A stretch of DNA of 64,000 nucleotides, taken from the NCBI GenBank assembly GCA_002077065.1, contig NAJO01000027.1, forward strand, positions 434,001 through 498,000. The letters run 5' to 3'. The translations under genes and the position numbers were made by a program. Position 1 is the first letter of the stretch, and each line of letters begins with the position of its first letter. The notes under the pieces are model-generated. The model was not told where the DNA came from. It ran no database searches and saw only the letters and a list, made by a program, of their open reading frames with translations. Origin of the DNA: Cryoendolithus antarcticus. Lineage: Eukaryota > Ascomycota > Dothideomycetes > Cladosporiales > Cladosporiaceae. This document shows positions 34,859-63,735 of this stretch, piece by piece.

Positions 34859-37800
34859 TCATCTCCCACTCAGCCGTGTCACCCGTCCCAGAATCTCCTC
34901 TGCCTCCCCCCTCGCCGCCCGACTCAGCCCATCCCTAGCCCCTAGCAACCTCCTCAGTAGATCCACAGCCCCTTCCATCTCCGCCTCCCCTCCAAACGGT
35001 ACCCGATCTCCCCTCCGCAGACTCTCTTCCATCCACGCAGCAAGCACATGCACCACATCCCCCGCGACACCCCGTCTCTCAGCGCCAACGAAAGGATGCT
35101 CGTTGCTATAGTACAGCTGCTCTAGTATCGGCACCAGAGCCTCCGGAGCGATGGACAGAGGCGAAGGCGGGAGGAAAATCTCCACAGCCCAGTGTTCCGG
35201 GCATCCGGACATCGAGGGGTCTAGCAGCGCGTGACGGAGAAGGAGAGGGAGGAGATCGCGGAGCGGGAAAGTGGAGTCGCTGACGCCTAGCTTGAGCCCT
35301 AGTTCTTGCACAGCGTTCGCGACGTGATCCCAAGGTTGGACTTCCTGCGCTGCGGCTGCTGTGGCTGTTTCGGCTGCAATGTATGCTGACCAGCTGGCGC
35401 GGATGTCTGCGGGATTGCGGTGATCGGCTACCTGGTAGATCTGCAGACACAGATCCTGGTAGGAGGCTTGATCGGCGTATTTGTTGAACAGCTCATCGAT
35501 GCTCAGTATGCCGTGATTCGAGAGGGCGTCTAGGATCATGGGACGACGGTCAGCAGACAGTCGAGGATCGGCTTTGAAGCGTTGTAGGAGGTCGTCTTGG
35601 ATATTGGAGACTTCTAGTAAGTCGTCTATTTGCCGGAGTAGGGACTGCTTGGATTGTCGGGATTGGAAGAGGAGGGATGGGCGGGTTGAGGCGTTTGTGC
35701 GGGCGCGGGAGAGATATTCGACGCGTTGCTCCAGGGAGAGAGGGAAGAGGCCTTGCGCTAGCTGGAGCTGCACTGCGGCTGCCTCGAGGTAGTCGTTGTT
35801 GTGTATGTAGTAGCGCCAAAGAAGATTTGCAGCGGGAAGGTCCAGAGCAGCGGCCTTTTGAGAGAGGTATTTGGGGACTGAGGGGCTGGGGATCTCGAGG
35901 AGACGATCTTGTCGCGCGGTCTCGAGATACCAGTCGTACAGGGAGGTTTGGAACACGAAGTCTTCGTTGCTGGCTATCACGTCGTAGGCCTCGTCGCGGA
36001 GCTTAGCGTCGAGGTTACTGAGGCCGGCGGGCGACTGCTCAGCAGCGGAGGTTGTGTTGTCGACGTGCTCGATGATGGCAAAGACGAAATGGTAGCAGCT
36101 TTGTCGTAGGTCAAAGGCAGCTTTTCGAGGGTCGTTCTCGGGCTTCTCGTCCCTAAGGTAGCCAAGTGCTAGTCGCGAACTGTCTTGCGCATCCGCAACA
36201 TTCAGGCAAAGCTGCAGCGCACCGGCATAGAACTTCGTGTCGCTGTAATGCAGCACAGCCCACTTGAGATGACCCTCGCTATCATCACCACCAATTGTGA
36301 GTATCGATGCCACATGCTTGAAGTGTGTCAGACTCTCATTCAACAACAGTCGCCCGCTTTCTGTCTGTGGCCCAGCCTGTCCGGCCCTCTTCACCAGCTC
36401 CTGTGCCTTGAAGATCGTTACATCGTCCGCGGAGCAGAAATTACCACATCTCCGTTTTAATGCCTCAGCGACCGTCTCGACACTGCTGCCAGTCGCGATG
36501 TTGCGGTTGACAATGGCTTTCACTAGCTCCTTGGCCAGCTCTCGACCAACTGCAGAGGTGAACAACGTCTCGTAAGTTAGCTGTTTAACCTTCTGCTTTG
36601 TGTCTTCGGAGAGCAAGGCCAGGACGTCCTCAAGTCGCTCCTCGAACAGCACATTGACAAAACTGATGCCCTCGGTGATACTCGAGATCAGCGCTACGAG
36701 GCTGGTCATTGCTCTGTGCTCGCCTTGTAAAGCGATCTCTTCTTGTCGGGAGCCCAGTCGAGACTGCGGACCAGAGAGACCATCGATCACGCCCTTGTTC
36801 GACTCGAGGAACTTCCCAAGCTGCTCCAGATCGCCTTGTATCCGCGTGAGCGTCGGCTTCGGTATACTCGAGACCAGCTTGAGCCCAGTCGTAAGGTCTA
36901 GCTGCTCACTCATGAGAGGAGCTCGCCAAATCGACCGCACAAGGCGACTGATGTACAGTGCTAGCCCATCGTGCCGAGCACTTGGCCTCACGCTGTCAAT
37001 TCCACCATCTACGTTAGCGTTCGCGTTGTACTCCGGCTTCCCTCCCTGATCGATGAACACCGATCTCGCCTTCTCTAGTATGTGCGGCTCGCTCACACTA
37101 GCGACTCGAGACTCCCCGCTGACATCCACGCCTTTACTGCATGCGACCGCAAGGGCTGTGGCCGCCGTCTCGGAGCGGCCGTATAGCCGTATGAAGCGCT
37201 TGATGTCGCCTTGGAGACCTTCGGAGTCTTGCGAAGCGTAGCGCATGAGTGAGGCGAATATGTCGACCAGTCTTCGTCTCCGGATCGTCTGTATGCCGTT
37301 CGACGTGAGGATACCGATCTCGGCACCAGGCGAGTCATACTGCACTGCGAGCTCATTGCCGAAGCCTAGCGGCGTGGACGTGGCTGACGGGTCCTCGCTA
37401 ATGAGTTGTACTGAAGTCATCGGACCATTCAATGGAATGTGTTGGCCGAACTCTGACAAGCGCATGCTTGGGTGTGTGGGTGATGACCCATCGTAGTACA
37501 TGCGCGCTGTGTCTGGCGCTGTACAGAACATCTTCTCGCCTCCTTGACTGTCCTGCACGAAGGCGAAGAAGAATCCAGGGGGAAACCGATAGGCCATGTC
37601 TGTGCGGTAGAGGTAGCGGGACGATGTGTCGACCATGCCAGCACCTGAAGGCTGACCGTAACGTGCGACTTCCGAGGAATTGTTCGAGGGCTGTCGCGAT
37701 GCAGTCTCCGTCTCTGGAGGTGGGAATCGGATGTGCTTGACCTCCATACTTGTTGGCGGGCGTTGTGCAGTTGTCTCTGAGCCTCCCACAGCCAGCACCG

Positions 37801-38995
37801 AGAGGTAAAGTCGACATCCAGTGTTGGTTGTCGCGATCAGACTCACTGCCCGCCCCTCCGTAGCCGGCACCGGACTCAGCGATACCAGCGTCGTACTACG
37901 AGCTGATAGTAAGTCCGTCTGCGGCACAAAGTGATTGACCTTCGTCATCAGTGCCTGAAAGGTCCTCGTGAGTGCCAGCGACACGTTCTCTTTCAGACTC
38001 CAGACCTTGATCTCATTCCTGTCGTTCAAGGTGTAGAGCTGTTCTCTCGTGTCATCGACCACCATCTGTACAAAAGTTGCCGGTTTCTGCTGCTGCCCAA
38101 TGTACCCTGTGAGTGACCTCACGCTCGCCGCCTCGACGAGTCGGAGGCCACTCTTCGTATGACATACTCTCTGTGTCTTCCCACTAAACCACCCCTCCTG
38201 CTGCTGATACCGGAATTCATACAAGTCCTCTGTGAAGCTCCCAGCAAAAAAGATCCTGCCACTTCTGGCGGAGCCCTCAATGTGCCTCACTCCAAGCCCA
38301 CGCGTAGGAATGCTCATCTGCGTGTTATACAACGCGATGGTCTTCGCGCCCGTCTCCGTCTTCTGCACCGCCACGCCTAGCAGTAGCATCTCCGCCGTGG
38401 TCGCCACAACAAGTAAATGAGTGATATCAGCGACAAACACGCCTTTCCTCGGCTTCACCAGGGCGACACTCTCGATCGTATTCCGCTGCTCCTCGAACCC
38501 AATCAATTCCGGGTTCGGCACCGTGTAATCCCACAAGTACAGACAGTTGTCAACAGCTGCCCAGGCATGCCGCAAGGGCGCGAAGAAGCCCATCTTCGTT
38601 GTCACGGAGCCCAGGTTCGCCTGCTCCAGAATTCGCGCTGGAAAGTCGTGCCATTTCAGCGGTTGGTAGGGGTTCCAGGCGGGATTTGTAGGTAGCTCGT
38701 AGTCTCCTGACACGCCCTGAGTGATGTAGACATCGAGCTCAGGGTATGAGGCTTCGGTGCGGAGGGTTGCGTTTATCTGCGCGGCGGCGCGCTCAATGTT
38801 TGAGATCTGCGGTCCGCCGACTTGAGAGGAGGATTGTTGTGATTGGGGCTGTTGTTGCTGGGTGCGCGTGGGCTGCTGATTGTACTGATCAAAGATTGAC
38901 CTTGGGGGTGGGCCGGGGGTGTTGAAGTATGAGCCTGGGAGCTGTCGCTGGGGAGTCGCAGGCGTCGCTGCCATGCTGCGCCTACGTTCGTCCAT
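34859..38995 (-). CDS. NUP170: Nucleoporin of the Nup155/Nup170/Nup157 family
   Basis: Intronless frame of 1,378 residues, the usual size for this inner-ring scaffold of the nuclear pore complex. The N-terminal 65 residues are disordered and Gln/Pro rich (TRTQQQQPQSQQSSSQ). A beta-propeller of about 450 residues follows and starts with the family hallmarks ASYPELDVYITQGVSGDYEL, WHDFPARILEQ and FFAPLRHAWAAVDNCLYLWDY. The C-terminal 800 residues are an alpha-helical solenoid (for example YLRDEKPENDPRKAAFDLRQ, AAALDLPAANLLWRYYIHNN, EYLSRARTNAS). It anchors the pore to the membrane and links to other inner-ring nucleoporins. The start is the first ATG, 203 bp from the divergent AIM41 start. It is one of the longest uninterrupted frames in the window. 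Confidence 0.95.
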   Translation of the reverse strand: MDERRRSMAATPATPQRQLPGSYFNTPGPPPRSIFDQYNQQPTRTQQQQPQSQQSSSQVGGPQISNIERAAAQINATLRTEASYPELDVYITQGVSGDYELPTNPAWNPYQPLKWHDFPARILEQANLGSVTTKMGFFAPLRHAWAAVDNCLYLWDYTVPNPELIGFEEQRNTIESVALVKPRKGVFVADITHLLVVATTAEMLLLGVAVQKTETGAKTIALYNTQMSIPTRGLGVRHIEGSARSGRIFFAGSFTEDLYEFRYQQQEGWFSGKTQRVCHTKSGLRLVEAASVRSLTGYIGQQQKPATFVQMVVDDTREQLYTLNDRNEIKVWSLKENVSLALTRTFQALMTKVNHFVPQTDLLSARSTTLVSLSPVPATEGRAVSLIATTNTGCRLYLSVLAVGGSETTAQRPPTSMEVKHIRFPPPETETASRQPSNNSSEVARYGQPSGAGMVDTSSRYLYRTDMAYRFPPGFFFAFVQDSQGGEKMFCTAPDTARMYYDGSSPTHPSMRLSEFGQHIPLNGPMTSVQLISEDPSATSTPLGFGNELAVQYDSPGAEIGILTSNGIQTIRRRRLVDIFASLMRYASQDSEGLQGDIKRFIRLYGRSETAATALAVACSKGVDVSGESRVASVSEPHILEKARSVFIDQGGKPEYNANANVDGGIDSVRPSARHDGLALYISRLVRSIWRAPLMSEQLDLTTGLKLVSSIPKPTLTRIQGDLEQLGKFLESNKGVIDGLSGPQSRLGSRQEEIALQGEHRAMTSLVALISSITEGISFVNVLFEERLEDVLALLSEDTKQKVKQLTYETLFTSAVGRELAKELVKAIVNRNIATGSSVETVAEALKRRCGNFCSADDVTIFKAQELVKRAGQAGPQTESGRLLLNESLTHFKHVASILTIGGDDSEGHLKWAVLHYSDTKFYAGALQLCLNVADAQDSSRLALGYLRDEKPENDPRKAAFDLRQSCYHFVFAIIEHVDNTTSAAEQSPAGLSNLDAKLRDEAYDVIASNEDFVFQTSLYDWYLETARQDRLLEIPSPSVPKYLSQKAAALDLPAANLLWRYYIHNNDYLEAAAVQLQLAQGLFPLSLEQRVEYLSRARTNASTRPSLLFQSRQSKQSLLRQIDDLLEVSNIQDDLLQRFKADPRLSADRRPMILDALSNHGILSIDELFNKYADQASYQDLCLQIYQVADHRNPADIRASWSAYIAAETATAAAAQEVQPWDHVANAVQELGLKLGVSDSTFPLRDLLPLLLRHALLDPSMSGCPEHWAVEIFLPPSPLSIAPEALVPILEQLYYSNEHPFVGAERRGVAGDVVHVLAAWMEESLRRGDRVPFGGEAEMEGAVDLLRRLLGARDGLSRAARGEAEEILGRVTRLSGR

Positions 38996-39198
38996 CGTGG
39001 GTTGGCGACGAGTACATCAGGCGCATGCGCTGCAAGTCGGACGATTGGATGTCGAGGTTGAAGTATTTCTATAGTGTTCGCCTACCAGTCGCGTAGCGCG
39101 TCGAGCTTCACTCTCCAGTATGCGGAACACACCCGCTCTGCTACACATGTACATACACTCCCATTCCATTCATCCCATCTTCCATTGAGCAAGACAAG
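38996..39198. promoter_or_regulatory. Short bidirectional promoter, NUP170 / AIM41
   Basis: Only 203 bp separate the two divergent start codons, so both core promoters and leaders must overlap or abut here. No defined motif was recognised; there is a CT-rich stretch just before AIM41. Confidence 0.55.
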
Positions 39199-39753
39199 AT
39201 GCCTCCCCTTCGGCCCCTCCGACATGTCCGCCTCGCTCCTTCCCTCCGCTTCTACTCCGCCCCTTCGACTCCCGGCGCCCCTCCCCTCCTCCTCAAACTC
39301 CGCTCCGACCTCAAATCCGCCCTCAAAGCGCGCGATGCGCCCCGCCTCGCAGTCCTCCGCTCCCTCCTGGCCGAAGTAACGAACCAGTCCAAAACAGCCT
39401 CCCCTTTACAAACAGACATGCAGCTCCTGTCCCTCCTCCGTAAACGGCAAGCCTCCGCCGAGACAGCGAAGCAGGAGTTTGAGAAAGCCGGCAGAGGCGA
39501 CTTGGTGGAGAAGGAGGTTGAGCAGGAGGGAATTCTAGGCGAGTATGTGGGGAGTGTGGAGACAGTGTCTGAGGAAGAGGTGAAAGCTACAGTTGCCGCG
39601 GAGGTTGCGAGGATGAGGGCAGAGGGGAAGGGAGAGTTGAAAGCTGGGCTGGTGATGAAGGAGATGCTGAAGAAGGATGGCGTATTTGAGGGGAAGAATG
39701 TGGAGAAGGTTGTCGTGGCTAGGGCTGTGAAGGACGTCTTGGCTGGTGAGTGA
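39199..39753 (+). CDS. AIM41: Mitochondrial GatB/YqeY-domain protein (AIM41-like)
   Basis: Intronless frame of 184 residues. The first 20-25 residues are basic and lack acidic residues (PPLRPLRHVRLAPSLRFYS), as in a mitochondrial targeting peptide. The rest is a complete YqeY/GatB-C-tail-like helical domain: LRSDLKSALKARDAPRLAVL, RKRQASAETAKQEFEKAGR, EEVKATVAAEVARM, GLVMKEMLKK, and a final VARAVKDVLAGE. Members of this family are related to the tRNA-binding tail of the Asp/Glu-tRNA amidotransferase. The yeast Aim41 function is not firmly known, but its loss affects mitochondrial inheritance or respiration. Confidence 0.92.
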   Translation: MPPLRPLRHVRLAPSLRFYSAPSTPGAPPLLLKLRSDLKSALKARDAPRLAVLRSLLAEVTNQSKTASPLQTDMQLLSLLRKRQASAETAKQEFEKAGRGDLVEKEVEQEGILGEYVGSVETVSEEEVKATVAAEVARMRAEGKGELKAGLVMKEMLKKDGVFEGKNVEKVVVARAVKDVLAGE

Positions 39754-40311
39754 GCTTCACAGTGCTCATAAACCCTGCAGGGACTGCCTGGACGCCCGAC
39801 CACGGACGTCGTCGTAAGGCTTTGTTGGGTCTACGTGCATGTCGAGCACTCGATCTGCTTTCTCTCGAAATGAGCGATGCGATGGGATTCGATCAAGTCC
39901 CTGCTCCGCGTCATGTCGATCGCTGCATCGGGCCATCTGCGGGTTCGAAGGCACGTTACCACTGCGCGCAGGACACATGCAGCCATGAGTTCGGGAACTC
40001 TCGTTCGCTCCACGACGCCTTTCAATGGTCGTCTCCACCAGAGGTGCTACACAGGCTGAGTCGAGAGCAGCACAGTCACGCTTCCCGGGACCTCGGAGAC
40101 CCGAAGACCCATCAAGTTCGAAAAGCCCGTCGCATGTACCGGTAGGATGTAATATACGTGTACAGTAGAAAATACAGCCACTGCGCTATACATTACAGCC
40201 TCCACAAAGACTTTGATCTCGACAAAGAAAATCCGTGTCGCTCCAGCGCAGTTCCAGGGCCAGCCTTCAACCCGCTCCAGAAGGGACGTAGCGGCCAAAG
40301 TGACTACGTGC
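39754..40311. other. Convergent intergenic region
   Basis: This holds the 3' sides of AIM41 (+) and the cyclophilin (-). Short frames on both strands show no domain. Confidence 0.4.
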
Positions 40312-41597
40312 TCATAGCCTTTCCGGCTCCCTGAACTTCATCGCCCCTCTACCCTTATACTTGACCGGCGGCTCATTCTCCTGCTCCGGATCGACTCCGA
40401 GTCGTCCGTCCTGCCCGCCCCTAGCAGGCTTGTACCGATCGCCTCTCCTCCACCGGTCATCCCGACCCTCGTACCTCCGACCAGCATAGCCATCATCCCT
40501 TCGTGGACTCGGTCGGTACCGATCGCCATCCGGCTGCTTCCGATCGCGTCTTTGCTCCGCGTACTGATTTGGCAAGCTGCGGCGTCGTCGCTGGGCATCA
40601 GAGTGTTCTGCTGCGCTATCGTCCATGTGGTCGCTGTCCTTGGCAGAGTCTACAGGCTTCCCTCGACTGGGGCTGGCGGATCGTTTCCGCTTGTGCTTTG
40701 TCACGGAAGCGTCAGAAACTTCGTCGCTCTCGTGCAGAGCTTTCGAAGAGGACCTCGAATGCGATCTCGCGCGAGGCCGGCCACGGATACCCTCATCGAC
40801 CACGTTGTCGCTCTGTCGTCGCGTGCGCATCACGGGTCGAGGAGCGGGACTCTGGCCTCGCATCTCGGTGTCCTCCTCTTCACTCCGCCGTCTTCCACGA
40901 GAAGCAGAGGACTTTGCGCTGTGCTCCTCCTGCTCGACTGGCTTGCTCGCAGCCTTGGGCTTTGCCTTCCTCTCCAGCTCCCCACAGCGACTGACAAGCA
41001 CCGGCTCGACCGGCCGATCGCTACCATCGACCTCAACCTTAGCGATCTTGCTCAGCACATTCTCAACTCCCACCAGCCTTCCAAAGACAGTGTGTTTCCC
41101 ATTCAAGTGCTCGCATGGCTCAAGCGTAACGAAGAACCTGTCGTCCTACATCAGCTCGGCTCATCACACCCACCCTCAGAAGAGACGAGTGCGTACTGAC
41201 AACCATTCGTATCCCTGCCTCGATTCGCACTACACACCAGACCCGCAGCATCGAGATCCCTCCAGCCTAGATTCTCATCATCGAAGTCCTCGCCGTAAAT
41301 GCTCTTCACTCCGGTTCCATCTCCATTGACTATATCACCACCCTGGATCATGAACTCATCGATCACCCTGTGGAACGGCGTCTTCGCGTATGACAGTCCA
41401 TCGTGCTCGCCAGTGCATAGCTGTCGGAAACTGCGTTGCGATAATCAGCCAGCGGGACAGAGTTGGCAGATGTGACATGAGCCTCACTTCTCGCATGTTT
41501 TTGGCGTCTGATCAGTGAAGAGCTCGATGGTGAGGCGACCAGCGGGCTCGGAGCCGATGTTGACGTCTAGGAAGACTCGCGGGCGTGAGGATGTCAT
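40312..41597 (-). CDS. Cyclophilin-type peptidyl-prolyl isomerase with charged SR/KR-rich tail
   Basis: Model: complement(join(40312..41137, 41197..41430, 41488..41597)), 389 residues, with introns of 59 and 57 nt. The N-terminal cyclophilin domain (about 1-165) is complete: RPRVFLDVNIGSEPAGRL, FRQLCTGEHDG, catalytic Arg in FHRVIDEFMIQGGD, then SANRGRDTNGCQFFVTL and GKHTVFGRL. The Trp that gives strong cyclosporin binding is replaced, as in other large nuclear cyclophilins (EHLNGKH). Residues 170-389 are an Arg/Ser/Lys/Asp-rich tail with RS and RD dipeptides and short Lys/Arg clusters (HKRKRSASPSRGK, RRDDGYAGRRYEGRDD). This architecture is that of nuclear, splicing-associated cyclophilins of the PPIG/NKTR type. 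The link to splicing is from family knowledge. Confidence 0.93.
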
Positions 41598-43010
<1,413 letters not shown>

Positions 43011-43498
43011 TCCAATGCTGTGACTGAGCATCTCGCACGCCAGTAACAGATGACAGCGCGGCTCCGGCAAAGTCTTCGAGATCGTCCAGCTCCGTCCTGT
43101 GCTGTATAAGCCACCAGCTCCTGCTGCTATCTTTTCGAGGCTATCTCGTGCTGCCTCGTACAGCGCGGTCGCGCATAGCCACGCAAGCTCTTCTCACAAC
43201 GGGCTTTATGGCGTCGATCTGAGCATCACATCGCCTCTGACGCACGGATGACTCTGTGTGATGCAGGTGACTTCCACGAGAGAGGGCTCCACGGCATCGA
43301 AAGGACGTGGGCTGTGACGGAACTTCGGCTGCGTATGGCCAGCGGACTGAGCCGGATAGGCTGCCACGCGATAGTGTGGCGGACACATTTCCTGGAGAGC
43401 ATCCGTTCCTCCAGAAGGTATGAAGAGAGATGAACTTGAGCTTCCTGTACGTAGCTGCATAGGAATGTTTTGCTTTCTCACCTACAACACGAGCTATC
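43011..43498. other. Convergent intergenic region
   Basis: This lies between the 3' ends of KRR1 (+) and the STAND protein (-). No gene is supported. Confidence 0.45.
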
Positions 43499-46400
43499 TC
43501 ATATCCCATACGCCCTCTTCAGCCCCACCTTCCACTCCTCAATCCCCTTCACCACGCCATCGACCACAATCTCCCCCTCCTTGAACCGCGTCGTCAGCTC
43601 GGGGACTTTCAAGAAGTCGTGCTTCCTGCTGCAGATCCTGACCGGTAGCCCTTCCTCGCTGTTCAAGAGCGCGTAGCAGAGATCGCAGAGCTGCGTGCCG
43701 TCGAGGCGGCACATGTATGCGCCGTCGAAGTAGGGGAAGCCGCGGGAGCAGGGGCCGTCGCAGGACCAGCCAGAGTCGTCGTCTTCGTCATCGGAGTCCG
43801 AGTCGTCATCGTCGTCGGCTTCGTCGCCATCTTCTGCATCATCTGCTGCCTCGCCCGACTTGGCGGCGTCGGTAGCTGCTTCACTTGTCGTTGCATCACT
43901 TGTTGGTGCCTCAGTCGACGCTGCCTTCGCGTCATCCGTAGTCGCATCGTCAGTGTCATCCTCATCTTCGTCCTCTTCCTCAGGCGGATCAGAAGCCAGC
44001 ACCGCCACGCCGTCTTTCATGGGTCGCAGCGCGTGCATGATGGCTATGGCGTTGGCCTCGTCTCCTACCGCGACAAGGGCTTCACTGAGATTCCAGTACC
44101 CTTCATAGTCGTTCGACGGATCGTCGTCGCTAAGGATGATGATAGCATCCTTGATATGCGGTTTCGCAAGCTCGCGGGCTTCCTCAGTCCTGCCATTCTG
44201 TCTGTACCACGCAGCAATGTAAAGGGCAATGTCTGAGGGCGGCATTGAGTCTTGCATGACGGCGGCCATGCCTCTTCTCCCCTGCTGTCTCGCCAGGATC
44301 CTCTCCAACTTCCCAATCCACTTCTCTTTGTGATGCTCATCCTCCGCAGCCTTAATGATGCAATACCAGCCCAAGCGGTTCAACGCTCCTCGGCGAGCAT
44401 ACATGATATCCGTCTCAGCCTTCGTGTTCACCGCGCTCTCTGTGCCGACCGTCTCCCAGATCCTCAGCGCCTTGTGCTCCTCATCGCCATACGCGAAGTA
44501 CAGATTAGCAAGACACAGATTGAGACAAGCGGCTACGACAGGCTGTAGTTTCTTCTTCGCAGCCGCCATCGCATCACGGTATCGTCCTTGCAGCCACTCT
44601 AGCTCACCGGTACCCTTTGCTGCACGAGCCATCATGTCAAAGTAGTCATCCTCGGCGTACTTATACTCCCACAGATAGTGCGTGAGGTTTGTGTTTGTCG
44701 GGTCGTCCTTGCGCTGAGTGTCGTTGAGGTCGTGCAAGAGGTTCATTATCTCTTCGAAGCACTCCTGCGGTGTCGGCAGCTCGACGCTCTCGCTGGTCTT
44801 CTTATTGTTCAGCTCCTCTTCTGATTTGCCATATGGCAGCCCAAGATCCGCGACTCCGTCCCAGAATCTGAAGCAGGTCGTGACCGCATCGTAGTCAGTA
44901 CTCAACAGCTTGAGTGACAGCTGGTAGTACTTCGTGGCTTTGCGGTCGATCTCGTATGTCTCAGCGCTGAAGTCATTGTTTATCTCCTGGGACAATGACC
45001 AGTAACAATCAGCCATCCGACGATACGCGGGCTGCCGGCCGACCGAATTCTTGTAGGCTTCATCTCGTGTCGTGTCGGCATCGATCACTTTGAGATGTTT
45101 CTCATCGGAATCGATGGCAGCCTGATAGTCACCCTTGGCTTTCAGCATCACAGCGATGCCGCCTTGTGCTAGCCACAGAGAGGGATCGAGCTCGAGGACT
45201 TTCTCGAAGTATGCACGCGCCTCGTCGTAGTGATTGTAATCGCGACACGACATTGCAAGGCGACGATACCACTCGGCAGTTTTCTCCAAGCCGGCCCATT
45301 CGGCAGTGTCGACGATCTGTTCAACGGTAAGACTGTCGGTATCCTCGTACATACCACCCTCCTTTCTCGTCCGCCATACGTAGATGATCTTGGGCACAAC
45401 AGTGTGGCTCCACCAGAGCGTGCCAGGAGCTAGCCATCTTTCAGACATGTACTTCATCGCCGGGCCGAAAACCTCTAAGCTCTTCTCGGGCTCAAGTGCT
45501 CGTATCCATTCTGCTCTCTCGGTAGTGGTGCTGTCGATCACCTCAGCATGCTTGAGCCATGGTATCAACGGGCCAGCTAGATCTTCTCGCCACAGATTCC
45601 ATCCTCGCAGACCGGTCCAGGTAGGATGGTGTTTCGGATCGTGCAGAACATCAGCCATGTTCTTGCCTATCTCCAACTGCTCTTCAGGCGTAGCGACCTT
45701 ACGATCTGCCTGCCGGACATACTCGAGCCACTGAAGTGCCCCGTATGGACGGAGACTGACCGAGTCTTTCATACGTGCTACGAGAGTCTCATTCACGATC
45801 AGGGCCAAGGATGTCTTCACCATAACGATCTTTGCGAGCTCAAAGTCCACTCCCACAGGCGGGCACTCTGGCTGGGACACTTTGCCATGCTTCGGGTTCC
45901 TGAAGAAGTCCGAGATGGATGCATGAGAAAACGACACAGTGGTCGTCCTCGGGTTCGAATCGAACTCGGTGGGGTAGTCCAGGTCATCTGCTCCATCTTC
46001 TTGTTCTGCACCCGCAACAGCGTCTTCAATATCCTCATCTTCATCCTCTCCACGCTTGGGAGCCAGCAGCTCAGCCGTGCTGAGCCCGTCATCACGTGTC
46101 AACGTGAACAAGCTAGCATAACTTTTTCGGAGTTGGCCTTCCAGATCAATGACTCCCTGGCCTTCATCAGACTTCAAGCGAAGCACCGAGTCCAGCTCCC
46201 CAAGATACAGTGGCCTTTGCGCCAAAGCCACCCACATGAGCATGTCATTTAAGTCAGAGGCCTCGGCCTCTGAGAGACTAGACGAGTATCCCTCGAGGAC
46301 GTGCTTGAGCATCTCGGTCAGACCCTTGGGCGCTTCATTCAGCGCCTTCTCAACGTCCGACTCTCGACTCCGCTGCGCTTTACGATTGAGTTCCTCAACC

Positions 46401-48115
46401 ATTAACTTTACCCACATGAACATGCCACCGGCCTTGCTCGTGAGCGTCTCTACGATGGTGGCTTGCAGTTTCTTCGACACCTTACTCAGAGCTCGCTTCT
46501 TCTCGATACTAGCTTCCACATAATGCGCGATGTCGCCACCGTTCTTTGTGGCGTCGATCAAGATGCTCGGAGGTTCTTCCTCGAGTTTATCAATGATGTC
46601 GTAGATGACTTGCGGACGACCGAGCATAGCAATTTTGAGGCGCGAGTCGGAGCCAGCCTCCAAGACGTCTTCGAGAAGCTCAAACAAGGTAAGCCGATCT
46701 TCAGTGAAGGCTTCATCAAGACCGTCGAGCAGAATATACGCAGTGCCTTCGTTCTCACTTGGCTTCAGCCAGTAATTGGCGAAGAGAACCTTCCACGCTG
46801 TTCTGATCGAGCCGATCTCAGCATTGCCGTGAGTTGCTGTCGCTAGGTACTTCGCATACGCCGGGTCGTTCTGTGTCAGCTGATACGCAATGTCACGGAA
46901 CGCTTGCTGCATTGAACGCGTCAGGTCATTGTTGTCGCGAAAGAACGCGAAAGCCACAGACGAGTCTTCGGACACTTCGCTGGTTGAAGATTGGGTCAGA
47001 TCAGTGAGATGCTGGATGATGTTGTACATGAGGAAGCTCTTTCCGCTCCCAGGGTTGCCAGATATCCACAATACGGGCTTGTCGTCGGTCTCGATCCAGG
47101 ATACAAGCGCCTGTTCTTGGCGAATCCAGTCTCCTGATCCGGGTACCTGCTCGCGTCTGATCTGATCGATCCTTTCCGGAGGGTTTCCAGAAGGTGCCAG
47201 CATCGTCTTCAAGGCTTCTAGATGCTTGAGGTCTTTCTCCTCCTTGGCGACCGACTTCGCCTCTTCCATGGCGCCCATGATCTGGCCAAGTCCGGAGAGT
47301 GTCTGCGGGCTGAGTCAATGCTGTCGATCAAATCGAGTCAATCGTACTCACATCATGTTGCGATATCTGGAGACCTTGCATTGCCATGGTCTGCTCAGTC
47401 ATCGACACCTGAATGGTCTCGACGCCTTTGTGCGTCTGCTTAACCTCCACCAAAGTCTCCGCTCCGACGAGTCGATCTTCGGCATCAGTCAGCTTCTCAA
47501 GTTTACCCAATAGCCCCTGCATCTCGGTGTCGTTCCCGAGCAGCACGTTCTTGCCGAACGTCTTGAAGCGTGTGAGAAATCCGTCCTTGATCTTCTTTGT
47601 AGACCGGGCGAAGATCTCGAGCACGGTTGTCTGTAACATAGAGTCAGTCTGATCCCCGCTGTCACACAAGATGGTATTACCAGGATCTGGGTCAACTTCT
47701 CCCTCAGCTCCTTCGACAAGTCTGCCCGCTCATACATACTGAGCCGCACGGTGAAGTCCTTGAGCACATCTAGTAGCCCTGCAATGGCATCCAGACTTGC
47801 CGACACGCCCTTGGCTGCATTGATCAGATACATAGCAGCGCCAAAGACCATTCCGCTCGGTGGGAAAGCCATGCTTGCTGCACCAGCTGCCAGATTGCCA
47901 ACAAGCTCGATCGGCTTGACAGCCGCCGAGAGCACTGCGAGTAAGCCATGAGACTTCTCTCGAAAGTGCTTGTAGTCTTTGTTCTGATTGTCAACATTCT
48001 TGATCAGCTCATCAGCGGTCCTAAATCTCGGCAACTCTTCGAGCCTCTTCCCAGAGATCTCGGCATAGCGTCTACTAGCCTCTTGCCAGATCCTGTCGAA
48101 TTCGGAGCCCGACAT
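43499..48115 (-). CDS. Goodbye-NACHT-TPR STAND protein with C-terminal ZZ-like zinc domain
   Basis: Model: complement(join(43499..47302, 47352..47630, 47681..48115)), 1,505 residues, with GT-AG introns of 49 and 50 nt in phase 0. Residues about 4-150 match the fungal STAND N-terminal Goodbye domain: FDRIWQEASRRYAEISGKRL, FREKSHGLLAVLSAAVKPIE, FPPSGMVFGAAMYLINAAKG. A helical linker follows. The NACHT NTPase carries Walker A GNPGSGKS (320-327), Walker B ILLDGLDE (428-435) and the LGRP sensor-like stretch. A helical region and an SFSHASISDFF winged-helix-type element precede tetratricopeptide-like helices (YNHYDEARAYFEKVLELDPS, DYQAAIDSDEKHLKV). Next comes an acidic Asp/Glu/Thr/Ala linker (about 1330-1416). 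The C-terminal domain at 1417-1470 has zinc-ligand spacing (CDGPC, YMC, CDLC, C and H) like ZZ-type domains. Such proteins are NLR-like and are proposed to act in heterokaryon incompatibility or xenorecognition. The ligand and output are unknown. Confidence 0.9.
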
Positions 48116-48824
48116 AGCTGCTCTGTGCGGTCAGTGGTTCCGCAAGCTCCCAGCTGCTACGCTCGTATGCTGAAGACGTGAGGTCTCATCAAGAAAGCAG
48201 GAAAGAAAGCATACTTGATCCTTCGGAAGCTTAGCCTGCTATATGGGGCCAAAACGAAGCTGGCAATGCACTGTGTGTTTAGGTGCAGCCACCAACTCCG
48301 CTTCAGAGTGTTAGCCTCCAGCTGCGGCTGAAGTGCAGTATGGTACTTCGGCTTCGTTCCCATCACTGCCATCTTTGGAGATGAGAGCAGGTGGATATAC
48401 CGGGACGCGGTTCGATGGACCGCGCCGAGCTCAACAATGGAGCGAGAAGCTCTGATGGTTGGCTAAGACAGGACGTAAATGGTGTGTAGTAGGACCCCTG
48501 TCTCGTCCCTGAACCTTTTCCCCGACTCGTGGCGTTTTAGAGCTTGTGCTCGAGTTCTTCCGAGAGCCGAGCAATCTGCTTTCACGTGCGTACGCGAACC
48601 CCACCCCAGGGTCACTGTGTCTCACACTACCAGTCCCTGCTCGAGCGACTACACCAGTTTGTATATTACATGTTCTGCGTTCGAGCGCGATAGCGCTGCA
48701 CAAAATGGAGGGATAGGCTCTCGGGCGAATTTCGCGGCCAGGATATCGCAGCACACGAAGGCGATCACCCAGTCGCGGCGCTATTGCACAGCTATCGAGC
48801 GTAGGTCTTGACAGCAGTCAAGCA
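48116..48824. promoter_or_regulatory. Divergent promoter region, STAND protein / AFG1
   Basis: This 709-bp interval lies between divergent start codons. No gene is supported. It must hold both promoters and leaders. Confidence 0.45.
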
Positions 48825-50486
48825 ATGGCTTCGAGGGAGGCTACACTGCTATTGAGGAAGGTGGTGCAGCCTCGAGGTGCCTGGATTCGCACCTTCATCC
48901 AACGGCGAGAGCTCTGCACAGCATGCCTGCGCAGGACCAGAGCAGAGACACAGTTCCAAGTGCGGCGCGATGGACGCTCTGTCGGCGCGAGAACAAGCCC
49001 AAGACAGGGCAATAATGTGCGAGCATACGCGACAATGGCGGAGTATCGCGCAAAGGAGTATCGGAGAGGTCCGTTGGAAGAATACGACTTCCGGGTGAAG
49101 TCAGGACGATTGAGGGACGATGAACATCAGCGGAATCTCATACAAGCCCTACAAGACCTTCATGACGATTTAGAGAACTATAGACCAATGCCAGTCCAGC
49201 ATCCGACCATTGAGTCTTTGCAGCCGAAGAAGGCAGGCTTTTTCGGCTCTATATTCGGTGGGTCTTCCTCGAACAAAATACGAATGGAACCTGCGCCGAA
49301 CCTGCCAAAGGGGCTGTACATGTTTGGCGATGTTGGCAGCGGCAAGACGATGCTGATGGACCTGTTCTACGACACGCTCCCGACAAATATCACCTCGAAG
49401 ACCCGTATTCACTTTCACAACTTTATGCAAGACGTTCACAAGGACATTCACAAGATGACAGTCGAGCACGGCAATGATATCGATGCCATTCCGTTCGTAG
49501 CCGCTAACATCGCGTCTAAGGCATCGGTGCTTTGCTTCGACGAGTTCCAGTGCACAGACGTCGCAGACGCCATGATTTTGCGCCGTCTCATTGAGTCCCT
49601 TATGTCCCACGGCACAGTCCTGGTCACGACTTCGAATCGCCACCCTTCAGAACTCTACAAGAACGGCATCCAGCGCGAGTCTTTCGTCCCGTGTATCAAG
49701 CTCCTTCAAACGAGGCTTCGCGTATTGAATCTGGACTCCACGACAGACTACCGCCGAATACCACGACCACCTTCTGGAGTGTATCATCACCCTTTAGATG
49801 CCGCCGCAAATCGCCACGCAGAACACTGGTTCCGCTTTCTCGGCGACTTCGACCACGATCCGCCCCATCACTCGGTCAAGAAAGTCTGGGGTCGCGACGT
49901 CGAAGTCCCACGTGCAAGTGGCCAAGCCTGTCGCTTTACCTTCGACGAGCTTCTTGGTCGAGCCACTGGGGCGGCAGACTACATCGAGCTCACCCGGAAC
50001 TATCATGCCTTCATCATCACTGACGTACCAGGAATGAACTATCGCAGTCGGGACTTGGCCCGCCGCTTCATCACCTTCATCGACGCTGTGTACGAGTCGC
50101 GTGCTAAATTAGTGCTGACGACTGCCGTTCCACTCTCTCAGCTCTTCATGACCCGTGATGAAGTTGACACCGCGCTCTCGGAGGCCGCTGACTCGGGTGT
50201 CCCGAATGCGAAGGCTGCCAAAGAGGACGGCGCGGACTTGGACTCGAGTATGCGGAGCTTGATGGACGATCTAGGCATGAGTATGAACACGCTGAAGGGG
50301 ACGAGTATCTTCAGCGGGGACGAGGAGACTTTTGCTTTTGCTAGAGCACTGAGCAGATTGAGTGAGATGGAAGGCTTGGAGTGGGTTGAAAGAGGTATGG
50401 GTCTGCAGAAGGACGGTGGAAGTGTTGAGAAGAAAGGATGGCAGAATGTTCGGAGTGCGCAGATGATGGACAGCTATGGAGGCTGA
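48825..50486 (+). CDS. AFG1: AFG1-type mitochondrial AAA ATPase
   Basis: Intronless frame of 553 residues. AFG1/LACE1 proteins are mitochondrial matrix ATPases that help degrade or extract unassembled respiratory-chain proteins. The first 65 residues are rich in Arg with few acidic residues, consistent with a targeting sequence. The ATPase core is intact: Walker A GDVGSGKT (168-175), Walker B VLCFDEFQ (235-242), sensor-like LVTTSNRHPSELYKNGIQRE, and the family-specific DYIELTRNYHAFIITDVPGM and RRFITFIDAVYESRAKLVLT. The C-terminal EETFAFARALSRLSEMEG is the conserved family end. A short insertion with acidic residues (KAAKEDGADLDSS) precedes it. The 3' end converges with the CHIP-like gene. Confidence 0.95.
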   Translation: MASREATLLLRKVVQPRGAWIRTFIQRRELCTACLRRTRAETQFQVRRDGRSVGARTSPRQGNNVRAYATMAEYRAKEYRRGPLEEYDFRVKSGRLRDDEHQRNLIQALQDLHDDLENYRPMPVQHPTIESLQPKKAGFFGSIFGGSSSNKIRMEPAPNLPKGLYMFGDVGSGKTMLMDLFYDTLPTNITSKTRIHFHNFMQDVHKDIHKMTVEHGNDIDAIPFVAANIASKASVLCFDEFQCTDVADAMILRRLIESLMSHGTVLVTTSNRHPSELYKNGIQRESFVPCIKLLQTRLRVLNLDSTTDYRRIPRPPSGVYHHPLDAAANRHAEHWFRFLGDFDHDPPHHSVKKVWGRDVEVPRASGQACRFTFDELLGRATGAADYIELTRNYHAFIITDVPGMNYRSRDLARRFITFIDAVYESRAKLVLTTAVPLSQLFMTRDEVDTALSEAADSGVPNAKAAKEDGADLDSSMRSLMDDLGMSMNTLKGTSIFSGDEETFAFARALSRLSEMEGLEWVERGMGLQKDGGSVEKKGWQNVRSAQMMDSYGG

Positions 50487-50844
50487 GATGAATTGAAACG
50501 GTGGTCGCCTCGTGACTATCCAATTTGAGTTTCGTTGAGTGCTCCGAGGATCAACAACCGTTGACTCATTCGAATGCGACCTCTGAGCAAAATAAGGCTA
50601 GGGTTGGGGACAGTCTTGAGAGACGGGCACGATCGACGGCTAGCACGCCGTAGCCGGAGCGTGCTGACGTCGATCGAGATCAGTGGTAATTCGCTGTAAT
50701 CGCCAACACTAACCACGCGATTCTGTTCTCGCGAATGAGGGCTGCGAGCCAAGCCATCGATCGCCTGCGCATCGGGTCCATTCAGCAAACCACGAGGCCA
50801 TGGAGAGAGTCCACTCGATGGCGACCTGCCATTGCTACTCAGCA
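50487..50844. other. Convergent spacer, AFG1 / CHIP-like
   Basis: This holds the 3' sides of both genes and no supportable coding sequence. Confidence 0.45.
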
Positions 50845-51837
50845 TTACCAGTCTAAGATCCATTCGCTTGCGCCACCTTCCCAGAACTCATCACATGCCG
50901 CCTTGAGTCCGAAATTGGGTCTCAAGTCATTGATCGTCAACGGATCGCGGGTCAGGGGATCTGTTGGACTTCGCTTGAGGTGCTCATAGATCGTTGCTCG
51001 CTCGTACGAATGGCCCATCTTGGTGATCACGGGATCGTGCATGGGCTCAAACGTGATCTGGACTTTGTCAGCTCATTCTAGCGTGCTTCACAAGATCAGG
51101 AGCTCACGTACCATGTCAACGAGATGATCCGGTACCTCTCTCGGCTTATGATGCGTCGGATCAGCCAGCTCAAACACCTTTCTGAGCTCTGCACGTTTGC
51201 CATCGTACGTCGCGGAGATCTCCTCGCTCTGCTCCTTCGCCTCTACATTCCCTAATCGCATAGCATCGAGCGACCTCGTGACATGGTCGAGTTCGACGCT
51301 CTTAGCCCTCTCGAGCGTTTCTTCCAGCTCGGCTCGTAAGTCACCCTGTCGACGCAATCGTTCGCGGTCTCGAACGGCGAATTTGGCCTTTTTGCATTTC
51401 AAGACGAATGCTGAGAAAGTCTCTAGGTCCTTAGGGGAGGTTCGAGTCGATGGCGAAGGAAAGCGTACCTGATCATACGCGGTCAAGGCTGATGATAGAG
51501 CTTCGTGGGGATGGTTGAGGGCTAGTTGAGCCTGTGCCAGGAAGTAGAAAGCCTTGTGATTCTGGCCGGATGCGGTCAGATCGATGCTCTTCAAGCAGTC
51601 GTTGACAGCAGCGTCCCATTTCTGTAGCTTGAGTCTAGAATTTGCCCGATTCGTGAATATCAGCGGATTCCGCGAGTACCTCTGTATTGCCTGCGTGTAC
51701 AAGTCTAGTTGGATCGTTAGGAGAAACGCATCATGTTCATTCGCACAAGCTCAGACCGTACCCTCGGCGTCCAAATACTCGCCGTTCCGGAAGGCTACGT
51801 TGCCCTTGTCCTTCAACATATCTGCTATGTGCGCCAT
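50845..51837 (-). CDS. CHIP (STUB1)-type TPR/U-box E3 ubiquitin ligase
   Basis: Model: complement(join(50845..51057, 51112..51704, 51762..51837)), 293 residues. Introns are 54 and 57 nt. The second has a CTAAC branch point and joins NGEYLDAE to DLYTQAIQRY. Three N-terminal TPR repeats (about 3-115: DKGNVAFRNGEYLDAEDLYT, NPLIFTNRANSRLKLQKWDA, HKAFYFLAQAQLALNHPHEA) would hold the C-terminal EEVD of Hsp70/Hsp90. A charged coiled coil spans about 130-200. A C-terminal U-box (224-290) reads FEPMHDPVITKMGHSYERAT and later RDPLTINDLRPNFGLKAACD, recruiting E2 enzymes. The order and total length match animal CHIP closely. By family, it ubiquitinates chaperone-bound misfolded clients in the cytosol. 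The gene is absent from budding yeast, so this is a retained ancestral quality-control ligase. Confidence 0.94.
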
Positions 51838-59370: not shown

Positions 59371-60492
59371 ATGATGGAGATTAAGAGCGCCTCAATATTC
59401 GTGCTGCCAAACGAGGTATACATTTCCGTGCTGATGGCCTCAGACCCTCCCAGACTAACTATGTACAGATACTCCTCAGCATCTTCAGTCAATTCTCGAC
59501 TCACGAGCTGCTACAATGGACTTCGACATGTCGACGATTTCATTCCCTGATCCTACGGCTGTTCCATAATCGACTGCAGTACGCAGCCGAGCTCGATGGC
59601 CACACGATGTATCTCGAGTGCTATCATCCGTCTGATCAATTGACAGCACCTGGCCTATTTGGTATCCCACTGGGGACCCATGGTCTCGATGAAATTGGTC
59701 GCAGTCTCAACGTCGATGGCCCAACGCCTGGACAGGCTCGTCGACTCGGCAATCTGTATACCCGCTTCCGGCCTCAGCAACATGAACCTGAAAGGAAGGT
59801 TCCCAGATGGCTACGACCCGGAGACGTCCCAGGCTCAAGAACGCACCCTGCTTCGGATCCGCAGGCTGAGGCTTCGGATGCGAAAGAAGTCGTTCGCGAT
59901 ATTGTCACGGTAGATGCGCATGAGCTGTTCTCCCAACTCGCCACCACTGCGTATCTTGGCAAGCGTGAGCCGAGACGAGGACTGTTGGAGTCAATAGTGC
60001 CTGTGACCGACAGTACGATACGTGTGTGGCGAGACTGGCTGAAGAGGATGTGTGAGTCGCGATCATTCTCAGACGAGAGCACGATTGTCATCCATCGCGA
60101 GCTTCAAGCAACTTCTGCAGCTATCTCTGGCACAGGCGCCGCTGAGTATTTGGACCCCAGTAAGGACCCAAACGTGCTATGGGCCAATACGAGGCATAAC
60201 GATGTTGGCATCAAGTTCAAAGTGGTCAAGCGGAAGCAGAGAGCGGCTACTATGCCTCTCATGTATGCAAGCGACGTGGAAGTGCCTGTGAGCTACGAGG
60301 TCGAGTTCGAAGGTGAGCTAAATTCGAGAAGACGCAACAATGGCGGAATTGGCTGACTGTCATGCAGAAGTATACGTACGCACTGGACATCTCGTATTGA
60401 GTCTGGAACAGCACGCACAGAAGAACCACAATAGCAGTGGGAAAGCCGTGATCTTTGGCGCATGGAGCGGCAGTCCTCCGACAGGCGACTGA
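59371..60492 (+). CDS. F-box protein, three exons
   Basis: Model: join(59371..59415, 59469..60312, 60368..60492), 337 residues. Introns are 53 nt (GTATAC, CTAAC branch, TACAG) and 55 nt (GTGAGC to GCAG). Exon 1 encodes only 15 residues. Splicing creates a classical F-box at about 10-50: VLPNEILLSIFSQFSTHELL followed by QWTSTCRRFHSLILRLFHNR. F-box proteins tether substrates to SCF ubiquitin ligases through Skp1. The rest contains RKVPRWLRPGDVPGSRTHP, STIRVWRDWLKRMCESRSFS, WANTRHNDVGIKFKVV and VPVSYEVEFEEVYVRTGHLV, a pattern I associate with a fungus-specific uncharacterised F-box group. The target is unknown. The first ATG pair (59371, 59374) is the only start consistent with the reconstructed F-box. 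Confidence 0.85.
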
Positions 60493-60854
60493 TCCCGTCG
60501 ATATAGCCTACTTCATGATTGCTTGAGCTGCACTCAACGATCGACGAGGCCGCTACCGTCCAGATGAGCTTGCAGCTCGCTCTTTGGGCCCGTAAATTCG
60601 GCTGTTACTGACGCAGAGCTGGACCGGCCGGAGCAGAGCACCTGCTTGCGAAGTTCAGTCAATATCTTCCAGGCCACCATTGTAAGACATATTCACGAAC
60701 GACCTCCAGTATTGTCCACTAACTTTTCAGCCAATCACAGGCTTGCAGCAAAGCTAACGTCATTGCCGATGTCAACTCGACTTCATCAGCAACGCTATTT
60801 CCATCAACAGAGCTACTCAGGCTTTGCAAACAACGATAATTGCATTCACCCAAC

Positions 60855-61565
60855 ATGGCTCTCCGAACGCTAACCGCCAAATCGGCCGCCGCTCTCGACG
60901 CCGAACTAATGTCCACGGGCGCTTTCTCCCTCGACCAACTAATGGAACTAGCCGGCCTCTCCGTAGCCCAATGCCTCCACACCCTCTCACCTCCAGCCAA
61001 AACACCCCGCGTCCTCGTCGCCTGTGGCCCCGGCAACAACGGCGGCGACGGTCTAGTAGCGGCCCGCCACTTGTGCCACTTCGGCTATAGACCATCTGTT
61101 TACTTCCCCAAGCAGACGAAGCATGAGCTCTACGCCCGACTACGGACGCAATTAGAGCAGCTGAAAGTCCCTTTCGTCACGGACTTCACCGCCGCAGCAA
61201 AGGAAGCAGACTACATCCTCGACGCCATCTTCGGCTTCTCCTTCAGTGGCGAAGTACGCGAACCGTTTCCTTCCGTCATCGCCACGCTCGCTTCTACGAA
61301 AGTCCCGGTACTGGCGGTCGACGCGCCGAGTAGTTGGAACATTGAGAGTGGGCCTCCTGGTGATGGGCCGGGGAAGGGGTATATGCCTACTGCGCTGGTT
61401 AGCTTGACGGCGCCGAAGCCGCTGGTGAAGTGGTTTCGGGGACGGCATTTTGTGGGTGGGAGGTTTGTGGGACGGGAGGTGGCGGAGAAGTATGGGTTTG
61501 ATGTTCCGGCTTACAAGGGGGGTGAGCAGGTTGTGGAGGTGCCGCTGGATGATGTGAAGCTTTGA
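60855..61565 (+). CDS. NAD(P)H-hydrate epimerase (YjeF-N domain)
   Basis: Intronless frame of 236 residues from the ATG at 60855. It equilibrates the R and S forms of damaged NAD(P)HX so that the dehydratase can repair them. The Rossmann-like signatures are intact: LTAKSAAALDAELMSTGAFS, the family-defining GPGNNGGDGLVAARHL, ADYILDAIFGFSFSGEVR with the catalytic-region Asp, and VLAVDAPSSWNIESGPP. The cation/substrate site continues in MPTALVSLTAPKPL and HFVGGRFV. There is no targeting sequence at this start, so it is cytosolic as read, though a leader codon set upstream (from 60840, starting TTG) lies in frame. The length matches fungal homologues. Confidence 0.93.
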   Translation: MALRTLTAKSAAALDAELMSTGAFSLDQLMELAGLSVAQCLHTLSPPAKTPRVLVACGPGNNGGDGLVAARHLCHFGYRPSVYFPKQTKHELYARLRTQLEQLKVPFVTDFTAAAKEADYILDAIFGFSFSGEVREPFPSVIATLASTKVPVLAVDAPSSWNIESGPPGDGPGKGYMPTALVSLTAPKPLVKWFRGRHFVGGRFVGREVAEKYGFDVPAYKGGEQVVEVPLDDVKL

Positions 61566-61899
61566 GCTGCTGTCGCTTCTCTCAGCGTCTGAAGACCTCC
61601 TGTGCCTCTACAATGGGACCCAACGGAGCGAGTGGGCAGTTCATCGCTCGTGAGAGACGGGAGCGACGTTGATGCTCGCTGCATTATACAGCTCATAGGT
61701 GCGGTTGGTTGGCAAAACACTACCGCGTTTGGTCGGAACAGAAGCACTGGTCATGTTCCCAAATACTGGAGAATTGGAGGTCTGAGGAAGTCGTGTATTG
61801 GGGTTGTTGTTCAGCGCTGGACTGCATTCACAGCGCTTTGTTATGTACATATTACTTACACCCTCCTTGTGTTATGTCTATACAGTGGCTTTCCTCCCT
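61566..61899. other. Convergent spacer
   Basis: This lies between the stops of the epimerase (+) and dihydroorotate dehydrogenase (-). It probably holds 3' untranslated regions only. Confidence 0.45.
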
Positions 61900-63735
61900 T
61901 CAGCTCGTTGCTGAAGCAGGCTTTGTGCCCACGGCCTCCCTCATCTCCCTCTTCATCCTCGTAATCGTTCCAACGCCGCCATACATCATCGCAGTGTACA
62001 CCTGACAGACGGACGCTCCCGCGTTCAGGATCTGGAGGCATTGCTCGCCGGTCGTGATCCCTCCCGTGGCGAAGATGACTTTTGATGCTGGCTCAGATGG
62101 CTTGATCGCTGGACTGGGTGCACTCGTTGATGCGGGTGCGACCGATGACTTCGAGAGGGGCGACGTAGGTGGAGCCGACAGGTCTGAAGAAGTCGCTGCA
62201 TCGTTCGAGACCTCAGAGGCTTGTAGCTTCGCTGCTGACGACGCAAATGGTGTTTCAGGTATCTTGATGATGGGCTGCTTGCTAGCTGCTTCTGCTTCTG
62301 GTGTAAGAGGCTTCAGTCGCGCGGCATCGCGGGTTGTGCTGGCTTCCGCGGCGTCCATTGCGGGCTTCGTGGGAGTCGCAGCAGGCTTCTCTGCTGCTTG
62401 CTTCACAGGCGTTCGCTGTGCTGGTTTCGAAGATGCAGGCGTCGAATCATCTTTTGGCGGACCTTGATCGAGTCTTGCGCGATACCTCCCAACGAGCGCA
62501 AGCGTCCGCTCGAACATCTGTGGTCCTGAGTACCCGCCCATCTCAGTAAGTAGCTTCTCTTCGTGTGCGGGCATGATATAGCCTTTAGGTATCACATCTG
62601 GCCGCTTCTTCGTTGTGTTGCCAACGATCACTCCATCTACACCTGATGCCCAGACGGCTTGGCAAATGCCTGCGATCTGCTCATCCGAGTCCTCGTCCGG
62701 GCTGACTTTCACCATGACTGCTGGTCTCGTTCTCCGATCGGTCGACTGTGCTGCATCTACTACTGCCGACAGTATACTTGTAAGTGGGCCGACAGCCTGC
62801 AGGTCCCTCAGGCCAGGCGTGTTGGGTGACGACACATTGACGACAAGTATATCCGCGTATCTTGCCAATTGGTCGACGCAATACACGTAGTCTCTCGCTA
62901 TCGCCTCAATGTCACCGTCAGGTGTCGTCTTGTTCTTCGCCATCTGCACAGCCAGTAGCTTCCCTGGGATCAGGCTACCCGGTGGCACGCCAGTCTCGCC
63001 GTCCAACACCGCTCGCTCCCCATCTGGTCCCAAACCAAGTCCCAGACTTCGCGCAAACTCTCTGACACGTTGTCGCAAGTTTCTTGCAACATGATCCGCG
63101 CCTTTGCTGTTCAAGCCGTACCGATTGATCAGGGCGTTCTGACTGGGTAATCGGAACACCCGCGGCTTCGGGTTCCCTTCCTGTGGCAATGGTGTCGCAC
63201 CTCCAACTTCCACGATCGCAGGTCCCAGAGCGAACAGCGGCGAAGGTATCTCAGCATCCTTGTCGATTCCTGCGCTTGTTCCGATAGGATTGTCAAGAAC
63301 ATGCCCGAAAACCTCGACCCTCAGGTCGCCCCGCTCGGTGTCATTGTTCCCTCGTTCCCGGGGGTGAAGATTGAACGCAAAGAGCCCTTGTATGTAGGAT
63401 ACGCCTTTATGATGCGCTTCTTCAGGATCGTAGTGTATCAGGCGGAGAGAGGGTACAACAAGCCATTGGTGTATGCTTGCGCGTGTGTCTGTTATGTACA
63501 AGTAGCCAAATCCGAGTGTAACGAGTATTCCAGTGCCATATATGAGGTTCTTGAGTCTTGTCCCTGCAGAGCGCGCATCACCTGCTGCAGTTGATGCTTC
63601 TCGGCGGATACCCCAGCGCTGCGTGTGCTGAGATATAGGTATCCTGGTATGTTGACGGAGTAATCGCGACCTGTGAGAGACACTGGAGAGCGACAAGGTA
63701 GCTGGCAGGCGAACTAGGCGCTGAGAGCCCGCCAT
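61900..63735 (-). CDS. Mitochondrial dihydroorotate dehydrogenase (class 2) with large insertion
   Basis: Intronless, 611 residues from the ATG at 63735. Class 2 DHODH oxidises dihydroorotate to orotate at the inner mitochondrial membrane with ubiquinone, in pyrimidine synthesis. The N-terminal 55 residues are a basic targeting sequence, followed by a membrane helix (LIYGTGILVTLGFGYLYIT). The barrel shows FGHVLDNPIGTSAGIDKDAE, VEVGGATPLPQEGNPKPRVF, RYGLNSKGAD, and the catalytic-Ser motif VNVSSPNTPGLRDLQ. VMVKVSPDEDSDE and DGVIVGNTT follow. Between RYRARLDQ and KVIFATGGITTG lies a 127-residue Ala/Pro/Ser/Lys-rich insertion (about 425-551) that interrupts the last part of the barrel. The C-terminal flavin-phosphate segment continues as QILNAGASVCQVYTAMMYGG. 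The frame begins with a TTG upstream at 63744, so the ATG is preferred. Confidence 0.94.
   Translation of the reverse strand: MAGSQRLVRLPATLSLSSVSHRSRLLRQHTRIPISQHTQRWGIRREASTAAGDARSAGTRLKNLIYGTGILVTLGFGYLYITDTRASIHQWLVVPSLRLIHYDPEEAHHKGVSYIQGLFAFNLHPRERGNNDTERGDLRVEVFGHVLDNPIGTSAGIDKDAEIPSPLFALGPAIVEVGGATPLPQEGNPKPRVFRLPSQNALINRYGLNSKGADHVARNLRQRVREFARSLGLGLGPDGERAVLDGETGVPPGSLIPGKLLAVQMAKNKTTPDGDIEAIARDYVYCVDQLARYADILVVNVSSPNTPGLRDLQAVGPLTSILSAVVDAAQSTDRRTRPAVMVKVSPDEDSDEQIAGICQAVWASGVDGVIVGNTTKKRPDVIPKGYIMPAHEEKLLTEMGGYSGPQMFERTLALVGRYRARLDQGPPKDDSTPASSKPAQRTPVKQAAEKPAATPTKPAMDAAEASTTRDAARLKPLTPEAEAASKQPIIKIPETPFASSAAKLQASEVSNDAATSSDLSAPPTSPLSKSSVAPASTSAPSPAIKPSEPASKVIFATGGITTGEQCLQILNAGASVCQVYTAMMYGGVGTITRMKREMREAVGTKPASATS

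Follow-up and report, generated by a model that had tools for sequence, protein, structure and literature searches.

The window analysed here, 64,000 nucleotides of contig NAJO01000027.1 (positions 434,001 to 498,000; contig C70 of a 47-Mb assembly) from Cryoendolithus antarcticus, a Dothideomycete of the Cladosporiaceae, carries a real and intact three-exon gene on its minus strand (48115-43499), which codes for a NOD-like receptor (NLR) of 1505 amino acids. The protein has an N-terminal Goodbye domain, a NACHT-type NTPase, a superhelix of tetratricopeptide repeats (TPR) and a C-terminal zinc domain that profile matches and a structure model identify as a divergent ZZ finger. This NLR architecture is known and ZZ-tailed fungal NLRs have already been published; what remains of lasting interest is a ZZ tail that is both divergent and conserved. 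The same tail is found in most full-length members of the lineage, which suggests that a ZZ can be a standing part of the sensor. The Pfam ZZ model mostly misses it and therefore the counts of zinc-finger NLRs that are based on annotation may be too low.

Regarding the identity of the zinc domain, the family profile matched ZZ structures in the PDB (BIG with E 3e-5 and HERC2 with 2e-4), and the AlphaFold model of the domain, with a pLDDT (predicted local distance difference test) of 90, agrees with the ZZ fold; the ligand pairs succeed one another as CxxC / CxxC / CxxC / final pair. A previous reading of this DNA made without database searches (the sequence-only reading) had called this end ZZ-like, and had tied an immune-like role to its alignment with some zinc fold and to variation among the orthologues. 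The domain does align to the ZZ fold, and the ligand pattern C-x2-3-C / C-x2-[CDG] / C-x2-C / C-x3-H was found in 54 of 68 sequences, all eight Cys/His ligands being present in 50 of those 54. The 68 sequences were the first 63 of 102 relatives (the lower 39 were left out of this count), three new matches of a Geoglossum query, the second copy of the gene and the paralogue on contig C82. We did not score the other 14 as losses of the ZZ because a number of them are models that are truncated or short, and in one, P0059, most of the ligands can be seen by eye, although there may be real losses among them.

The last ligand pair of ZZ fingers is usually His-His. In the NLR family it is C-x3-H, which is invariant in 25 C-terminal fragments chosen by hand for diversity and is required by the pattern in the 54 sequences. 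Pfam ZZ (PF00569) was not matched by the fragment of the NLR protein itself, whose matches were limited to SPRTN_ZBD (E 0.07) and FYVE (E 0.1); among the 25 fragments, at E<=1, three matched ZZ (best 5.7e-5) and seven matched FYVE (best 9.3e-5). We rejected a FYVE, RING or IBR identity, since the PDB search gave 33 sequences at E<=10, 31 of them from proteins with a ZZ, and the nearest folds are ZZ. A fold search of viral proteins gave a weak likeness to ZZ and RING (best E 0.01).

The C-terminal domain of the NLR alone, used as query, found two proteins (itself and that of Oleoguttula sp. CCFEE 5521), and the Geoglossum domain found five (itself, one already known and the three new ones), two of the new ones being TPR proteins with neither a Goodbye nor an NTPase domain listed. 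Searching the genome for the CDGxC motif as a DNA pattern was uninformative, with 407 matches and 308 for the backward control. In the relative P0063 the motif of the post-ZZ tail (EEW...IRK.WG) is seemingly present twice, which hints at a tail that forms a separate module.

The rest of the gene model agrees with the coordinates and with the complete Goodbye-NACHT-TPR plan proposed from the sequence only. Splicing out both GT-AG introns gave a 1505-codon frame without internal stops, whose translation is 100% identical to the public C. antarcticus protein B0A48_12148 (P0001). In the second copy in the genome the exons are conserved, as are the GT and AG at the ends of the two introns, whose interiors are more diverged. 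The Goodbye domain (PF17109) scored 111.9 bits against a cut-off of 24.8, and NPHP3_N was also far above its own cut-off, while the Pfam NACHT model PF05729 stayed below (19.6 against 26.7 bits). The NTPase has the P-loop with Walker A and a Walker B of the D..DE type, as expected for a STAND protein (signal transduction ATPases with numerous domains), and both motifs are intact as claimed, their key residues being invariant in the alignment (Table 1). TPR_12 was over its cut-off (33.2 against 30.1 bits) at about residues 912-944 and the other TPR models listed by Pfam were all below theirs; the AlphaFold model shows helical hairpins forming a superhelix over the whole repeat region. The tripartite NLR plan is present, with a predicted N-terminal effector, an NTPase and C-terminal superstructure-forming repeats. 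The acidic linker that had been described before the zinc domain is also there.

Table 1. Features of the NLR gene and its product, in positions of the window.
Feature	Position	Strand	Remarks
Exon 1	47681..48115	-	Residues 1-145; start codon at 48115; exon conserved in second copy
Intron 1	47631..47680	-	50 bp, GT-AG; 57 bp in second copy
Exon 2	47352..47630	-	Residues 146-238; conserved in second copy
Intron 2	47303..47351	-	49 bp, GT-AG
Exon 3	43499..47302	-	Residues 239-1505 and stop
Goodbye domain (PF17109)	47732..48088	-	Residues 10-128; Pfam E 3.2e-32; predicted effector
NACHT-type NTPase (PF24883 NPHP3_N)	46616..47140	-	Residues 293-467; Pfam E 3.8e-32; AAA+/ORC-like fold
Walker A	47036..47059	-	Residues 320-327, GNPGSGKS; G320, G323, G325 and K326 invariant in 36 rows
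Walker B	46712..46738	-	Residues 427-435, YILLDGLDE; D431, D434 and E435 invariant in 36 rows
TPR superhelix	44027..45319	-	About residues 900-1330; Pfam and structure model
Acidic low-complexity linker	43775..43981	-	About residues 1346-1414; poor alignment occupancy and conservation
Divergent ZZ zinc finger (predicted)	43601..43774	-	About residues 1415-1472; ligands C1419 C1423 C1436 D1439 C1444 C1447 C1462 H1466
Conserved post-ZZ tail	43502..43600	-	Residues 1473-1505; beta hairpin and helix

The sequence-only reading had also considered this architecture uncommon, which did not hold. The protein search with the NLR as query, in which the 7992 candidates sharing most words with it were scored, gave 102 proteins at E<=0.001. 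Dozens of them have the same architecture in several lineages of Pezizomycotina, and several are named 'NACHT and TPR domain protein'. Judging by their names, the long relatives come from Eurotiomycetes, Dothideomycetes, Sordariomycetes, Leotiomycetes, Geoglossomycetes and lichen fungi. Goodbye-NACHT NLRs are also reported to be frequent in fungi (PMC4986451, PMC12258605). In the tree, built from 45 rows, the branches are long and therefore the placement of P0063, P0068, the C82 paralogue and a Goodbye protein on contig C61 is unsure. The orthologues are not invariant: the identity to the Oleoguttula mirabilis protein was 66% in Goodbye, 54% in NACHT, 25% in the pre-TPR region, 41% in the TPR and 44% in the ZZ.

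Within its own genome, Goodbye was found at four places, one of them this gene. The second copy of the NLR, on C61, is 95% identical. The C82 paralogue is 29% identical over residues 5-693 and the frame that follows it downstream contains a ZZ; we infer that both frames belong to a single gene. Another Goodbye gene on C61 has a 968-aa frame without the ZZ tail, that frame alone being examined. Between the two NLR copies, the ratio of nonsynonymous to synonymous substitution rates (dN/dS, by NG86) was 0.035 overall, with 0.006 in Goodbye, 0.043 in NACHT and also in the TPR-like region, 0.119 in the acidic linker and 0.071 in the ZZ and tail; the dS was not estimable in 2 of 25 sliding windows. 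These values show strong purifying selection with a faster sensor half, and not to hypervariability. The value of the TPR-like region, which compares two copies of one genome, does not favour a heterokaryon-incompatibility NLR.

Some side observations concern the two copies and their surroundings. The 57-bp intron 1 of the second copy (C61:334489-334545) is a multiple of three and has no in-frame stop, and therefore a six-frame search reads through it. Positions 2000-5000 and 60000-63000 of the window have exactly one second copy each, both on C61, with 83% and 85% nucleotide identity respectively. Around the gene, positions 34881-51837 are 82-85% identical to a part of C61 in which the order is rearranged, and about 34881-43493 is in opposite orientation to C61:338900-346000, beside the 3'-end of the gene. 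This is an inversion with its breakpoint just beyond the NLR stop codon. From the sequence comparison, the paired copies of C70 and C61 look like a whole-genome duplication or hybridisation. C. antarcticus is presumably the same species as Rachicladosporium antarcticum CCFEE 5527. A genome of 47.4 Mb with 18,781 genes is reported for the latter (PMC5502844).

Regarding the function, we think that the NLR is probably a STAND receptor that senses through its TPR and ZZ and starts cell death or stress signalling by way of Goodbye. At rest, the TPR superhelix would hold the NACHT switch. A target protein or peptide would be bound by the TPR array, and probably by the ZZ on its acidic tether as well, and this binding would lead to nucleotide exchange and oligomerisation of the NACHT domains. 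The oligomers would then bring the N-terminal Goodbye bundles together, and the clustered bundles would act as a HeLo/MLKL-like membrane effector, with cell death or a stress response as the result. The N-terminal Goodbye is more likely the effector, with the ZZ on the sensor side. The sequence-only reading had suggested a signal output through the zinc domain, distinct from HeLo, and neither part is supported. Goodbye-like domains have the four-helix core common to HeLo and MLKL plus an extra N-terminal extension, their functional likeness to HeLo/MLKL being still open (PMC9815663), and the ZZ stands at the C-terminal end, like the zinc fingers of 52 of 57 Sordariales NLRs (PMC12258605).

The strong purifying selection between the two copies would also agree with a conserved STAND ATPase outside immunity, acting for example in stress tolerance, secretion or development. 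Furthermore, the NACHT protein Ncp of Penicillium herquei, whose kinship to this family is not implied, affects the tolerance of ionic stress, features of cell death and unconventional secretion (PMC13311144). However, the conservation is very uneven, the TPR and pre-TPR regions being the fastest diverging. Among the first 63 of the 102 relatives, the only named Dothideomycetes are Cryoendolithus, two Oleoguttula and Melanomma, which, with 7992 candidates scored, is a hint of a patchy gene. We consider a non-immune ATPase unlikely. An output or turnover module, by which the ZZ would bring SUMO or the machinery of ubiquitin or autophagy to the receptor, comes closer to the signal output of the sequence-only reading but is quite improbable: E3 ligases and an autophagy receptor are indeed among the nearest ZZ structures (BIG, HERC2, KCMF1, p62), but the ZZ lies on the side of the sensor, the protein has a distinct effector at its N-terminus and there is no ligase domain among the 25 Pfam families listed for the NLR protein. 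Very improbable too is that the ZZ was copied from a host protein and joined to the NLR as an integrated decoy, a bait for parasite effectors; non-canonical domains of fungal NLRs have indeed been examined as such decoys, but the good candidate was a kinase domain and the zinc fingers were proposed as possible additional canonical sensor domains (PMC12258605), and here the ZZ is in most full-length members examined and, in the 29%-identical C82 paralogue, in the frame just downstream of the Goodbye-NACHT frame, and therefore its association with the NLR looks old and standing.

As to what the ZZ of the TPR/ZZ-sensing receptor could bind, the pocket of HERC2 holds an N-terminal Arg mimetic or the histone H3 tail with D2709, D2728 and D2730 (PMC9001736), and in p62 and PRT1 a pair of Asp contacts the alpha-amine (PMC11668491). 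We placed the HERC2 Asp on the family by our own reading of one alignment. The NLR protein retains one of the three, D1420, and the other two positions are not acidic; it does not have the N-degron-type acidic pocket of p62, HERC2 and PRT1, because it keeps the first Asp alone. Among the 54 family sequences, the Asp directly after the first Cys (C1+1) was present in 37, and D or E was found at C4+2 in 31 and at C5-2 in 18. On these counts we rejected a fully conserved N-degron pocket, although some relatives could have, judging by their residues, a canonical one. It is a long shot that in this old fungal NLR lineage the tethered C7H ZZ reads newly exposed protein N-termini or modified peptides and so senses proteolysis and triggers Goodbye-mediated death, with the pocket retuned in the Cryoendolithus copies.

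The standing C7H ZZ of the lineage was not found in the available text of the open-access literature on Goodbye or ZZ NLRs. TPR and ZZ domains are also mentioned for genes resembling NLRs in the moss Physcomitrella patens (PMC7145615). The closest known proteins are the Goodbye-NACHT-TPR NLRs of Aspergillus, Penicillium, Colletotrichum and others. They have the same architecture, most full-length members with the C-terminal Cys/His domain, and the identity is about 27-47% for the named relatives and 89% for Oleoguttula sp. CCFEE 5521; the difference is at ligand 4, where the NLR protein (Asp1439), its second copy and that Oleoguttula protein have Asp instead of Cys. Human SAMD9 was the second in the Foldseek ranking of the NACHT-TPR model (E 2.5e-6, 971 columns), but with 11% identity and a root mean square deviation of 24.3 this is a general resemblance and not family membership. 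The ZZ domains of BIG, HERC2, p62, PRT1 and KCMF1 share the fold, the order of the ligand pairs and, with 37 of the 54 family sequences, the Asp after the first Cys, and they differ from the NLR family in its last pair, in its less often acidic residues at the other two pocket positions and in the conserved hairpin-helix tail that follows its ZZ. Finally, the Sordariales survey described 57 zinc-finger NLRs, with 17 fingers of ZZ type, which may or may not include this lineage, and 16 of treble-clef type beside canonical repeats (PMC12258605). The zinc finger stands at the C-terminus in both cases, but there the fingers are annotated non-canonical domains, whereas here the ZZ is a standing part of the lineage.
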